The notes beneath the pieces are model-generated. The model was not told the DNA's origin, did not search any database, and worked only from the letters and a program-made list of their open reading frames with translations. A stretch of 64,000 bases of DNA from Actinomycetospora soli (lineage in GTDB: Bacteria; Actinomycetota; Actinomycetes; Mycobacteriales; Pseudonocardiaceae), in assembly GCF_021026295.1 (NCBI RefSeq), contig NZ_JAJNDA010000016.1, positions 62,001 to 126,000 of the forward strand, read 5' to 3'. Positions 15,422 to 30,459 of the stretch are shown in pieces (position 1 is the stretch's first letter; every line of letters begins with the position of its first letter). The position numbers and the translations under genes are program-made.

Positions 15422-15462
15422 CCCTCGACCCTCGACCTCGAGTGGAGGTCTATGGTCGAGGG
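15422..15462. repeat. CCCTCGACC repeats in the ftsZ leader
   Basis: On the plus strand CCCTCGACC occurs twice, overlapping (15422-15430 and 15429-15437). Its reverse complement GGTCGAGGG lies at 15454-15462. The second copy and the inverse form a 9-bp stem with a 16-nt spacer, about 60-95 bp upstream of the ftsZ start. It could be an operator or an mRNA hairpin; no regulator is implied by the context. Confidence 0.5.
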
Positions 15463-15624
15463 CTCCCCGTTCCGGTGTCCGCGCGACCGTAGGCAGCCGA
15501 CACCGCGTGATGCACGCAGGCGCGCCGGGTGTGTCCCGCCTCGATGTCACCCGTCTGCCCCAACCGGTGCGAACTCTGGATGACGGGTCGAGACTTCCCG
15601 GCGCCGCGTCCCGGGTGAGCGGCC

Positions 15625-17130
15625 TCAGCCGGTCACGGACGCGTAGGACGACCCCAGCCTGGCGTCCGACAGCTCGTAGGTGCCGGTCTGGCCGATGCCG
15701 GTGTCGCGGTAGAGGCCGAGCTTCCAGTAGCTGTACATGCCGGGGTAGAGCGTGCCGCCCGGGGGCTTGAAGCCGGCGACGCGCTGCTGGCCGTCCAGCC
15801 ACGCGTCGACGAACCCCTTCGACGGGTCGGACGAGAACTTCACGTGCAGCACCACGGTGACGACCTTGCCGGTGACGGCCGGGCCGATCGTCTTGTCGAA
15901 GCTGCGCGACCCGCCGGGCCGGCCGAAGCCGCCGGAGAGGACGAAGTTGCCGTTGCCGATGCGCAGCTCGAGCGGCGGGCTGCCGGTCCCCTCGTTCTTG
16001 AACTGCGTGATGAGCTGCCAGGAGTTCGTCTGGACCGGGAAGCCGTCGGCGAGGCGCACCGAGAGCCGGATGTAGCGGTCCTGGCCCTCGGTGAAGTTGT
16101 CGACGTTCGGCTCGATCTCGGAGCGCTTGCCGCCGCCGGGCATGGTGAAGCGCAGCGCCTTGCGGCCGGGGAGGTCGGTCGCCGCGACGACGGTGGGCGT
16201 CTTCGCGCCGACCATGTTCCAGGGCGTGTCCTTGAACATGCCCAGGCCCTGCGCGGTGATGTTCGCGTCCCAGATCGCCTTCGGGGCCGGCGCGGGCGCC
16301 GGGGTGGTGCCCGACGCCGGGGTCGGCCGGATCGGGATGACGGTGGTGCTGGGCGGGGCGGTCGTCGTCGCGGGTGCCGAGGTCGTGGCCGGCGCCGAGG
16401 TCGTGGCCGGTGCCGACGTCGCGGCGGGCGCCGACGTCGTGGCCGGTGCCGACGTCGCGGCGGGCGCCGAGGTCGCCGGCACGGCCGCCGTGGTGCTCGG
16501 TGCCGCCGGGGCCGTGCCCGAGGCGGGCGCCGCGGCCGTGGTGGAGGTGGTGAGCCAGAGCCGTTCGACGGCGGGGCTGACCGCCCCGCTGCCCCCGAGC
16601 ATGACGATGCGCGCCTGGACCTGCGTGGTCAGGGCGGGCAGGACCGTGCGGGCGCCGTCCTTCGTCGGGAGCCACCGGCTCCACGTGCCGTCGGGCAGGA
16701 CGCCGCGGACGTCCACGCGGGCGGTGGTGCCGGGCGGCAGGTCGGCGGTGAGGGTCGGGGTGATCGCGTTCGTCGCGGCGGCGGGCCGGCGCGGCGGCAG
16801 GACCATGACGCCCTCGGAGCGCGCCTTGGCGGTGGAGGGCGTGACGAGCCGGATCGCGCCGTCGACGAGGCGCACGTTCACGTCGTCGCCGCCGGAGACG
16901 GCGAGCTCGGTGCCCCAGCTCTCGCCGGTGGGCACGGCGGTGGCGGAGGCGGCGAGTCCGACGACGGCGGCGAGCAGTGCCCCCGCACCCGCCGTCAGGA
17001 AGGCCCGGCGGCGGCGCCAGCCGCGGCGCTCGCGCTCCGCGGCGGCGGTCGAGGGCCGGGCGCCCGCCCCGGCGTGCGGGGAGAGCGGGCGGTCGGCGAG
17101 GGGATCGAGGAGCTCAGCAGGACGCGACAC
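15625..17130 (-). CDS. Secreted protein: shared N-terminal domain plus heparin-lyase-like C-terminal domain
   Basis: Probably exported and acting on or binding polysaccharide outside the cell. Of 501 residues, WRRRRAFLTAGAGALL near 38-53 resembles a Tat signal. Residues about 70-200 form a domain shared with the next gene (ESWGTELAV, VDVRGVLPDGTWSRW, ERLWL). A T/S/A/P-rich linker with SAPATT-type repeats runs from about 200 to 280. The last 210 residues resemble the concanavalin-fold polysaccharide lyase (heparin lyase I-like, PF14099) group: KRSEIEP, YIRLSVRLADGFP, SWQLITQFKNEG, PPLELRIGNG, YWKLGLYRD. The GTG start follows GGAGG. It overlaps the upstream gene by 17 bp. Catalytic activity is not proven. 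Confidence 0.82.
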   Translation of the reverse strand: MSRPAELLDPLADRPLSPHAGAGARPSTAAAERERRGWRRRRAFLTAGAGALLAAVVGLAASATAVPTGESWGTELAVSGGDDVNVRLVDGAIRLVTPSTAKARSEGVMVLPPRRPAAATNAITPTLTADLPPGTTARVDVRGVLPDGTWSRWLPTKDGARTVLPALTTQVQARIVMLGGSGAVSPAVERLWLTTSTTAAAPASGTAPAAPSTTAAVPATSAPAATSAPATTSAPAATSAPATTSAPATTSAPATTTAPPSTTVIPIRPTPASGTTPAPAPAPKAIWDANITAQGLGMFKDTPWNMVGAKTPTVVAATDLPGRKALRFTMPGGGKRSEIEPNVDNFTEGQDRYIRLSVRLADGFPVQTNSWQLITQFKNEGTGSPPLELRIGNGNFVLSGGFGRPGGSRSFDKTIGPAVTGKVVTVVLHVKFSSDPSKGFVDAWLDGQQRVAGFKPPGGTLYPGMYSYWKLGLYRDTGIGQTGTYELSDARLGSSYASVTG

Positions 17131-18472
17131 GGGGGGCCTCCACGGCGGCGGCGGGGACGTACTGCTGGGGACCGACCTGCAGCCACTGGCTGCTCGCGCC
17201 CTGCGAGCCGACGCGCGGCTGGCCCTGGGCGACGCAGGTGACGGCCATCCGGGCCCCGGCGGCGACGGCGCCGACGGAGGAGGAGGCGTCGGTCGGGGCG
17301 GAGCGCACGACGAGCGTCGGGGCGCCGGTGGGACGGGCGAGGGCGGAGGGACCGGTGCCGGTCCAGAGGTAGGTGACGGTGACCCAGCTGTTGTCCCGGA
17401 GCTGGAGGTCGTCGTAGTAGGTGCCGTCGGCGAGGTCGATGCCGGCGGGGTTGGCCACGCGGCGGCCGAAGCCGTCCTTGCCGCCGTTGTAGCCGCGCTG
17501 GAACGCGGCCTGGGCCTGCGGGAGCCCGAGCGTCAGGTCGCCCCACTGCTGGCGCCCGACGTTCCAGTAGTCGTCGCGGATGTTCCACGGACCGACGTCC
17601 CAGACCGGGGACCAGGCGCAGCGCCCGTTGGGGGCGCAGACCTTGACGGTGTAGTCGCCCTTGTCGCGGGGCGAGAGGCCGCGCCGCGAGGGCAGGGCGA
17701 CGAAGTGGTCGCGCGGGACGATCACGTGGCCGTTGGCGGTGGTGTTCCCGACGAGGCCGATGCGGGTGGCGAACACGCGGCTGGTGACGGGGGCGACCTT
17801 CGCCGGGGTGGGGGCGGCGGTCGGCACCGTGGGCGCCGTGGGCGCCGTGGTGGGCGCCGTCGTCGGCGCGGTGGTGGGCGCGGGCGCGGTGGTGGTCGGG
17901 GCGGGCGCCGGGGTGGTCCCGACCCGGTCGCCGGCGAGCCAGAGCCGCTGCAGCGCGGGGCTCGCGCCGAAGTCGCCCGCGACGAGCGTGACGCGCACCT
18001 GCAGGTCGTTCATGGCCTCGGACAGCCGTGCGGGGCCGCCGGGGCTCGCGGTGCTCCACTGGCTCCACGTGCCGTCGGCGCGGACCCCGCGCACGTCGAC
18101 GAGGACCTCGCCGCCGGGCGGGACGTCCGCGGTCACCGTGGCGGTGACGCGGTCGACCGGCGCCGACAGCCGGCGCGGCGAGAGCAGCAGCTCGCCCTCG
18201 TTGCGGGTGGAGCGGGCGCTCTGGGCCCGCACCACGCCGTCGGCGAGGCGGATCGCGCCCGCGGTCGCCACGACGTTGGTGTCGTCGGCGTTCTCGACGG
18301 CGAGCTCCGGCACCCAGGTCTCCCCGGGCTCCGAGGCCCGAGCCACGGGGGCGTGCCCGAGGGTGGCCCCCAGGATCGAGGCGGCCAGGAACGACACCGC
18401 CGCGGCGACCAGCACCCGGCGCACCCGTGGTGGCGCCGCACCCCCGGTGTCCCGGCCCGTCCTCATGCCCAT
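17114..18472 (-). CDS. Secreted protein: shared N-terminal domain, RlpA/expansin-like domain and SH3-like tail
   Basis: An exported wall-associated protein by inference. Of 452 residues, a signal peptide covers about 1-46 (VRRVLVAAAVSFLAASILG, cleavage near ARAS). Residues 50-185 match the N-terminal domain of the neighbouring gene (ETWVPELAV, VDVRGVRADGTWSQW, LQRLWLAG). A Thr/Pro/Ala linker covers about 190-230. The next 150 residues (VIVPRDHFVALPSR, WDVGPWNIRDDYW, ANPAGIDLADGTYYDDL) look like a double-psi beta-barrel of the RlpA/expansin kind, with a likely disulfide in VCAPNGRC. The end resembles bacterial SH3. The ATG at 18470-18472 is downstream of a strong hairpin. Enzyme activity is unknown. 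Confidence 0.82.
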   Translation of the reverse strand: MGMRTGRDTGGAAPPRVRRVLVAAAVSFLAASILGATLGHAPVARASEPGETWVPELAVENADDTNVVATAGAIRLADGVVRAQSARSTRNEGELLLSPRRLSAPVDRVTATVTADVPPGGEVLVDVRGVRADGTWSQWSTASPGGPARLSEAMNDLQVRVTLVAGDFGASPALQRLWLAGDRVGTTPAPAPTTTAPAPTTAPTTAPTTAPTAPTVPTAAPTPAKVAPVTSRVFATRIGLVGNTTANGHVIVPRDHFVALPSRRGLSPRDKGDYTVKVCAPNGRCAWSPVWDVGPWNIRDDYWNVGRQQWGDLTLGLPQAQAAFQRGYNGGKDGFGRRVANPAGIDLADGTYYDDLQLRDNSWVTVTYLWTGTGPSALARPTGAPTLVVRSAPTDASSSVGAVAAGARMAVTCVAQGQPRVGSQGASSQWLQVGPQQYVPAAAVEAPRVASC

Positions 18473-18785
18473 CGCGCTCGCACCTCTCCCACCGTCGTGA
18501 CGACGGGTGGGAGTTGACGCTGCGTGACACATCTGGGTCAAGCGAAACGCGTGGTGTGCACGTGAGTGATAACCAGAGTGGTGAAACCCGTTCGCGCAGG
18601 TCACACACCCTTCACGGGTCCCCCGGAGGGGTCACGGCCGCCACGGACGAGGGAGGCGGAGCCCCGGCCGCACACGCTCGGTGCCCGTCGGCCACCGGAG
18701 ACACGGTGACCGCGCGTGACACTTCGAGTGGTGATCGAGGGTTCGTCCGTCGCGGTCCGGAGGCGGCGCCGCCCGGGGCACCGTG
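18473..18785. other. 313-bp gene-free gap between ftsQ and the secreted-protein pair
   Basis: No gene was found. It contains the hairpin at 18486-18513 and AT-richer stretches such as the one at 18541-18600 that could hold a promoter (minus strand TTGACC near 18536-18541). I looked for a c-di-AMP riboswitch, which often precedes such wall hydrolases, and did not find its conserved core. Confidence 0.6.
18486..18513 (-). promoter_or_regulatory. 12-bp hairpin enclosing the probable ribosome-binding site of the 17114-18472 gene
   Basis: The arms pair over 12 bp with one bulged base and a 3-nt loop; the key stem is CTCCCAC/GTGGGAG plus CGTCG/CGACG. On the mRNA the 3' arm contains GGTGGGAG, which with the adjacent AGG is the only Shine-Dalgarno-like sequence before the ATG at 18472. 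The hairpin would hide it. Structure is seen; regulation is inferred. Confidence 0.55.
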
Positions 18786-29291: not shown

Positions 29292-29933
29292 TCAGCCGTC
29301 GTCGTCGGGCGTGTCGCGCGCCCCGTCGTCGAGGCCGTGCAGGTGGGCCGTGACGGCGGCCGTGGTGCGCTCGGCGTCGCCGGTGGCGAGCAGGTCGAGC
29401 AGGGCCCCGCGGAGGACGGCGAGCAGCAGTGCGCGCTCGGCGGTGCCCTCCGGGGTGGAGACGCGCTCGGAGGGCTGGTGGGCGGCGAGCAGGAGGTCCC
29501 AGTCGGTGACCGTGTCGCGGGCGAACCCGGCCCACGGGCTGTCCCGACCCCCCTCCGCGTCGGGCTCGTCGCCCAGCGACCGGCTGTAGGCCTCGAGCCA
29601 GAGCCGGAGCAGCCCGCGGTGCTCGGGCGCGGCGAGCCAGGCCCAGAGGTCGTGCCCGACCCGGGCGAGCCCGGCGTCGTCGGGCAGGGCGTCGAGGACC
29701 CGCAGCTGGTCGGCGCGCGAGCGCCCGAGTAGCGCGCGGACCAGCCCGTCCTTGCTGCCGAACAGGTAGAGCAGCACGCGCGGGCTGGACCCGACGGCCT
29801 CGGCGAGCGGGCGCAGCGACATGCCGGCCCAGCCGTGCTCGAGGACCCAGCCGTACGTCGCGTCGAGCAGTTCACGTCGGCGCGCCGACCCGGTCCCGTC
29901 GGTCGCCGCACTCGCCTCGTCGGTCGCCGTCAC
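29292..29933 (-). CDS. TetR-family transcriptional regulator
   Basis: A DNA-binding repressor by family. Of 213 residues, the N-terminal helix-turn-helix covers about 18-65 (RRRELLDATYGWVLEHGWAG, SLRPLAEAVGSSPRVLLYLFGSKDGL). The C-terminal ligand/dimer domain is alanine and leucine rich. The GTG start at 29931-29933 lies 17 bp from a perfect 20-bp palindrome, so autoregulation and control of the divergent GNAT gene are likely. The gene interrupts the ftsI-murE junction and is read into murE. Confidence 0.9.
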   Translation of the reverse strand: MTATDEASAATDGTGSARRRELLDATYGWVLEHGWAGMSLRPLAEAVGSSPRVLLYLFGSKDGLVRALLGRSRADQLRVLDALPDDAGLARVGHDLWAWLAAPEHRGLLRLWLEAYSRSLGDEPDAEGGRDSPWAGFARDTVTDWDLLLAAHQPSERVSTPEGTAERALLLAVLRGALLDLLATGDAERTTAAVTAHLHGLDDGARDTPDDDG

Positions 29934-29950
29934 GAGGGACAGTGTGCTTC

Positions 29951-29970
29951 ACTGAAACACTCGTTTCAGT
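29951..29970. promoter_or_regulatory. Perfect inverted repeat, probable TetR operator
   Basis: ACTGAAACACTCGTTTCAGT: 8-bp arms ACTGAAAC/GTTTCAGT around a 4-base centre. It lies in the 52-bp divergent gap between tetR and the GNAT gene, the classic place for a TetR operator. Binding would block both promoters. Confidence 0.8.
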
Positions 29971-29985
29971 CAGGAGGGTGTGAGC

Positions 29986-30459
29986 ATGGGTGAGGTCACC
30001 GTCCGGGCGGCCGACCGTCCCGGCGACCTGGGCTGGGTGGTGATGGCGCACGGCGAGCTCTATGCCGCGGAGTACGGGTGGGCCGTCGAGCAGGTCACGG
30101 CGGGGATCGTGGCGGCCTACACGCCGGGCCCCGACGCCGCCTGGATCGCCGAGCTGGACGACCGCCGGGTCGGCTGCGTGTTCTGCGTACGGGAGGACGC
30201 GGGCACCGCGCGGCTGCGGCTGCTCCTGCTCGACCCGGCCGCCCGGGGGCTCGGCGTCGGGCGCACCCTCGTGCGCCGGTGCGTCGCGCACGCGCGGGAC
30301 GCCGGGTTCTCCCGCCTCGTGCTGTGGACCAACGCGCCGCTGGCCGCCGCCCGCGGGATCTACCTCGACGAGGGGTTCGTGCTCACGGCCGAGGAGCAGC
30401 ACGACGAGTTCGGCGTGCCGCTCCTCGGCCAGGACTACGAGCTGGACCTCACGGCGTGA
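29986..30459 (+). CDS. GNAT-family N-acetyltransferase (MarR-associated type)
   Basis: Acetyl-CoA-dependent transferase, substrate unknown. Of 157 residues, the acetyl-CoA loop is LLLLDPAARGLGVGRTLV near 75-95, followed by the typical GFSRLVLWTNAPLAAARGIYLDEGF segment. The ATG at 29986 is preferred over a GTG at 29980, because AGGAGG at 29972-29977 is 8 bases from the ATG and only 2 from the GTG. It is divergent from tetR, and its 3' end overlaps the ftsI 3' end by 11 bp in convergent orientation. Confidence 0.88.
   Translation: MGEVTVRAADRPGDLGWVVMAHGELYAAEYGWAVEQVTAGIVAAYTPGPDAAWIAELDDRRVGCVFCVREDAGTARLRLLLLDPAARGLGVGRTLVRRCVAHARDAGFSRLVLWTNAPLAAARGIYLDEGFVLTAEEQHDEFGVPLLGQDYELDLTA

Follow-up and report, generated by a model that had tools for sequence, protein, structure and literature searches.

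Why do two genes for predicted exported proteins lie between ftsQ and ftsZ in the division (dcw) cluster of an actinobacterium, and does their place there tie them to division? The question is raised by a stretch of 64,000 nucleotides from Actinomycetospora soli (contig NZ_JAJNDA010000016.1, positions 62,001 to 126,000; hereafter the window), in which a gene for a protein with an RlpA-like barrel (B) is followed by a gene for a protein with a lyase-type domain (A). The existence of the pair between ftsQ and ftsZ was confirmed, and the pair is real, conserved and duplicated. As to its function, we put at about an even chance the reading that B and A are a co-translated, exported pair that remodels or cross-bridges the envelope glycans of the cell itself and is not specific to division.

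A conserved and duplicated gene pair

Genes A and B share their strand with ftsQ and ftsZ, and 319 nt separate ftsQ from B and 255 nt separate A from ftsZ. The ratio of non-synonymous to synonymous substitution rates (dN/dS) was 0.15-0.49 for each gene over 21 species pairs, and both the GC content and the GC content at third codon positions match those of the dcw neighbours; A and B are thus real coding genes. Horizontal gain of the pair was also considered, and the composition, being like that of the neighbours, gave no sign of it. The first-pass annotation had described two exported proteins on one strand, overlapping by 17 bp between ftsQ and ftsZ; the reading frames, strand and overlap stood, and export is predicted from the hydrophobic N-terminal segment alone. 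Gene names such as ftsZ, murC, moaA, modA, menA and menD are readings of the sequences; for FtsQ the identity was confirmed against Pfam. Genes in the other loci examined were called with a small codon-based caller.

Among 18 Actinomycetospora genomes, the pair was found between ftsQ and ftsZ in 7/7 clade I genomes in which that interval is assembled and in 0/10 clade II genomes, all ten of which have an ftsQ-ftsZ gap of 227-287 bp; in the incomplete genome G014, ftsQ is not assembled. Loci of A. termitidis, A. sp. NBRC 106378 and A. chiangmaiensis (L089-L091) also have the pair in this place. A second pair, at a moa-type locus, is present in 18/18 genomes, and its neighbours (moaA, modA, a regulator and transport-type genes) are common to 17 of them, the contig of G004 being too short to judge; moaA itself stands on the examined piece in 12. 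Furthermore, a single B-like gene lies beside menA in 16/16 genus genomes examined, and several further Pseudonocardiaceae also have one next to menA or close by. The signs of coupling between the two genes are shared by the copies: in 25/25 pairs, GGAGG is present and a start codon stands 17 nt ahead of the end of B, and the frame of the A start fits by arithmetic in all 25, with the open frame displayed in 14 (seven dcw and seven moa).

The N-terminal jelly-roll domain is common to A and B. Six clade I genomes carry five matches to it apiece, none of them outside the three known loci, and G016 adds a sixth, weak one; three were found in 9/10 clade II genomes, two in G004 and three in the incomplete G014. 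Because the matches within the genus are confined to the loci of the family, A and B are taken as one small family. In a tree of B (54 rows), the moa copies (18 rows, support 100/100), the men copies (16 rows, 100/98) and the dcw copies (seven rows, 88/83) each grouped together, and dcw and moa were joined at 98/99. A tree of the lyase domain (34 of 35 rows, after removal of a distant one) likewise joined dcw and moa (88/86), with the copies of the glf locus placed nearby. The approximately unbiased (AU) test rejected a more recent derivation of the dcw pair from the clade I moa copies (p 0.0012). Given these trees and this rejection, the dcw/moa split most probably predates the genus, where the trees place it, and clade II would then be without its dcw copy through loss; less probably, the copies evolved at very different rates. 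The analysis separates an old duplication and a genome position from function.

Table 1. Features of the gene pair and its surroundings (positions in the window)
Feature	Position	Strand	Details
Gene A	15625..17130	minus	501 aa, GTG start; tail, membrane segment, jelly-roll N domain, linker, PF14099 domain
Gene B	17114..18466	minus	450 aa, ATG start; signal segment, jelly-roll N domain, linker, RlpA-like barrel, SH3 domain
Overlap of B end and A start	17114..17130	minus	17 bp
GGAGG inside B	17137..17141	minus	6 nt ahead of the A GTG start
A tail, ahead of membrane segment	17005..17130	minus	residues 1-42; RPLSPH motif at residue 14, 7/7 dcw copies
A jelly-roll N domain	16534..16938	minus	residues 65-199
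A linker	16279..16533	minus	residues 200-284, Ala/Thr/Pro/Ser-rich
A lyase-type domain	15628..16278	minus	residues 285-501; R336-S-E, Q376-F-K378, Y468-WKLGLY
B jelly-roll N domain	17921..18334	minus	
B RlpA/expansin-type barrel	17351..17791	minus	TTANGH at 242, VWDVGPWN at 288, GIDLADG at 342
B SH3 wall-binding-type domain	17117..17344	minus	residues 375-450
Conserved non-coding block upstream of B	18511..18603	minus	no RNA family match, no conserved fold
ftsZ upstream region	15428..15554	minus	common with the clade without the pair

Domains of the two proteins and likenesses to known systems

The heparin-lyase-like end domain claimed for A was borne out by a PF14099 profile match of 88.7 bits against a cut-off of 29.9. 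Structure prediction, which the first-pass annotation had proposed for both C-terminal domains, gave a jelly-roll lyase fold for A (mean pLDDT, the predicted local distance difference test, of 57.3), with a glucuronan lyase as the nearest structure, and a double-psi barrel for B (pLDDT 85.2). A sequence search of A against solved structures gave no match; matches of its modelled lyase-type domain to clostridial toxin-complex structures were set aside as jelly-roll look-alikes. In a viral fold library, the only matches were weak ones to phage proteins and lectin-like proteins, and one to an RlpA-like phage protein. With the roles of the motif residues taken from the available portions of PMC6165035, the Q-x-H motif of PL7-type lyases was found to be Q-x-K in 6/6 dcw, 7/7 moa and 4/4 glf-locus rows, which retain R-S-E and the Tyr motif, and other PF14099 paralogues of the window genome retain the histidine. 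A is a PF14099 member by its profile match, with a changed base residue, and since the catalytic histidine of PL7- and heparinase-type lyases is lysine here, any lyase activity is putative. The same lysine sets A apart from PL20 endo-glucuronan lyase and heparin lyase I (relatives of PF14099), as do the fusion to a jelly-roll N domain and the co-translation with B. Cip1 of Trichoderma reesei, as described in sections of PMC3764139, is also unlike A, being fungal, carrying CBM1 and having no partner gene.

The middle domain of B has no Pfam match and follows a TP-rich linker. In a comparison with the PDB made by VIA-align alone, it matched double-psi barrel and expansin chains, and its motifs align with those of DPBB_1 relatives, so the RlpA/expansin-like domain claimed for B was upheld. 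The aspartate of D-x-GP, D290, is invariant in 47 aligned sequences and aligns with the motif Asp of the DPBB_1 relatives; it probably corresponds, in our reading, to the catalytic Asp described in the accessible part of PMC9712689. B resembles RlpA in barrel fold, in the aligned TANG and D-x-GP motifs, in export (predicted for B) and in a wall-binding end domain. However, B has an extra jelly-roll domain and a histidine after TANG, PF03330 (DPBB_1) matched nothing in the 18 genus genomes or the 47 B relatives, and the SPOR domain of RlpA had no match in B or its relatives, B ending instead in an SH3-type domain. With the double-psi fold and the D-x-GP aspartate present, but PF03330 and SPOR both unmatched, B is not a member of RlpA. 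Dissimilar from bacterial expansins as well, B matches SH3 chains at its C-terminus, and no expansin-type C-terminal domain was found there. Of the 47 B relatives, 31 match the first part of the model for the spore-wall hydrolase GsmA (NF038016), which is its SH3-type region; B itself scores 32.8 bits against a cut-off of 240, and the remainder of the GsmA model is unmatched.

In the literature searched, no report of such a pair of an RlpA-like and a lyase-type protein was found, and searches on an MtrA-regulon role, on GsmA and on PF14099 in actinobacteria yielded nothing further. The analysis names a small actinobacterial family built on one jelly-roll domain, in which an RlpA-like wall protein is paired with a lyase-type protein. 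Two observations concern the A counterparts (A') of clade II and of the window genome (G000), which are without the lyase domain. In the window genome (L169:10637-11470), the tail that trails the domain in sister genomes remains, as after an apparent in-frame loss of the lyase domain. In clade II A' (L180, L181, L182, L209-L210, L212-L216), there is a long tail rich in Thr, and a conserved motif resembling SWWGxDLLxWLxRAF forms its end.

Position in the division cluster and function of the pair

The first-pass annotation had reasoned that ftsQ and ftsZ are neighbours in nearly all actinobacteria, and had drawn a septal role from the place of the pair. The first statement was too strong: among genomes in which a single contig carries both ftsQ and ftsZ, the distance between them exceeds 750 bp in 12/18 genomes of other genera of the family and in 8/21 from other families of the order. 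Fifteen intervals of other genera were read (L183-L197; three short ones of the family, 756-832 bp, were left out), and all hold other called open reading frames, one of only 72 aa; the A/B module was in 0/15. Some of the genes in these intervals of Pseudonocardiaceae and other Mycobacteriales are DinB-like by eye. The expectation that the pair always lies between ftsQ and ftsZ held within one clade, where the position is fixed, and failed for the gene family as a whole; 7/56 genomes with both genes on one contig keep the position, all of them in one clade. Moreover, the end of the gap between A and ftsZ matches the stretch that separates ftsQ from ftsZ in the clade lacking the pair (six genomes against nine, among the matches listed), which indicates that ftsZ kept its own upstream region. 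Together, the unrelated genes in the interval of many relatives and the retained ftsZ upstream region mean that position does not support a septal role, and the paralogous pair in all 18 genomes, the single gene at menA and the empty interval of the sister clade speak against that argument too. More generally, the ftsQ-ftsZ interval of Pseudonocardiaceae often houses genes that have nothing to do with division, and a position there calls for caution.

The earlier proposal that the pair remodels or binds envelope glycans at the septum therefore divides: the link to surface glycans is plausible, but the septal step is unsupported. The seven clade I genomes hold 10-12 PF14099 copies, the incomplete G014 five and the ten clade II genomes 4-6, and in other genera of the family PF14099 was found in 28/190 sampled genomes, with a maximum of five. 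In the window genome, two of the 12 copies adjoin a gene for UDP-galactopyranose mutase and two lie within 8 kb of a gene for decaprenyl-phosphate phosphoribosyltransferase, a layout that is alike in G003 (L171, L172, L240 and L242 in the two genomes); four of the 12 are thus near arabinogalactan-precursor genes, as also in G003. Copies in G011 and G051 have exopolysaccharide genes (UDP-glucose dehydrogenase, Wzy, Wzz or sugar transferase) at distances of up to 10 kb. The computation itself shows the domains of the two proteins, with the N domain common to both, the overlap of the genes, the history of their copies and the purifying selection on them; on the reading that the pair acts on the cell's own envelope, we infer the following roles. 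B would hold the wall via its SH3 domain and loosen or cut glycan with its RlpA-like barrel; A, membrane-anchored or released, would act on, or only bind, an acidic or secondary polysaccharide with its glucuronan-lyase-like domain. The common jelly-roll domain may direct both to one ligand, and the two proteins may be made in matched amounts through the ribosome-binding site within the end of B. The dcw copy would be an old duplicate of the moa-type pair with its own conserved upstream block; with an insertion-tolerant interval, that block and ftsZ control in place, no division-specific role would be needed. If this holds, lyase-fold proteins would take part in envelope turnover, in a genus in which that fold is greatly expanded.

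Several points weigh against it. The lyase base position of A is Lys; B retains TANG and the Asp of its motif, but the residue that follows TANG is His, where 5/12 compared RlpA-type domains have Glu; and the single-sequence SH3 match of B is under the Pfam cut-off. In two PF14099 paralogues of the window genome, the domain is fused to GH12, in one case together with a cutinase (L176:7830-11087, L177:8307-10358), which points to outside biomass, and two copies carry ricin-type lectins. The other eight window-genome copies, including the GH12 fusions, were not seen near envelope-glycan genes, and the contexts come from the window genome and three further genomes only. Such fusions would suit a pair that attacks plant, fungal or lichen walls, with B loosening them in the manner of a microbial expansin and A cleaving uronic-acid glycans for food. 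However, B ends in a wall-binding-type SH3 domain and not in that of an expansin, A has a conserved tail ahead of its membrane segment in 7/7 dcw copies, and some PF14099 copies lie near envelope-glycan genes. Setting these glycan-gene neighbours against the GH12 and cutinase fusions and the ricin-type lectins leaves the attack on outside biomass a possible but doubtful explanation, second to that of the cell's own envelope.

A module of the division or sporulation septum, in which the tail of A recruits the pair to remodel septal glycans, is unlikely. The fixed position in clade I, the RPLSPH tail of the dcw copies (with no example among the moa copies displayed), the SH3 likeness to the GsmA model and the action of RlpA at the septum in Pseudomonas (reported in the parts available of PMC9712689 and PMC6895207) agree with it, but not the 0/10 of clade II, the second pair elsewhere, the intact ftsZ upstream region or the unrelated inserts. 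A more specific form, in which clade I wired a duplicated, coupled pair into the division cluster and the conserved cytoplasmic tail of A links an envelope-polysaccharide enzyme to the divisome, is somewhat less likely again. That neither protein is an enzyme, and that both build a surface or matrix layer that binds glycan, their barrel and lyase domains having been retained as binding folds, we regard as very improbable. The lysine of A, the long Thr/Pro linkers and the A' proteins without a lyase domain would fit such a layer, but A retains R-S-E, the Tyr motif and the Gln. Lys may presumably serve in some solved jelly-roll lyases, as the matched structure 6kzk is a K143A mutant, and this was counted against a non-enzymatic layer. 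In favour of such a layer, Cip1, of the same fold, is described without significant lyase activity in PMC3764139, and E. coli RlpA without transglycosylase activity in PMC9712689.

Upstream sequences and neighbouring genes

In the block upstream of B, 72/121 columns are invariant in seven genomes. A riboswitch or other known RNA was sought there and not adopted, the lone match, to sX12, being sub-threshold (E 0.48) and inside B, and the block having no consensus fold. The sequence ATCACYCACRTGC is upstream of 7/7 dcw B genes and, within two mismatches, of 15/18 moa B genes (two of them poor); it was found in 0/16 men copies and in none of the other B relatives scanned. Genome-wide matches to its motif are mostly terminator-like palindromes of the other clade, and for this reason no regulon is claimed. 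MtrA control is not claimed either, as comparison by eye with the motif given in the accessible text of PMC6265350 and PMC5650626 gave only imperfect half-sites.

A palindrome of ~50 nt, GCACGTGAGTGATC...GATCACTCACGTGC, is repeated in the clade II genomes G011 and G002 (L246-L251, L253-L260), often at gene ends, and looks like a dispersed terminator-type repeat. Elsewhere in the division cluster of the window, between murE and an ftsI-like gene, TetR-like and GNAT-like genes were noted by eye at 29292-30459.
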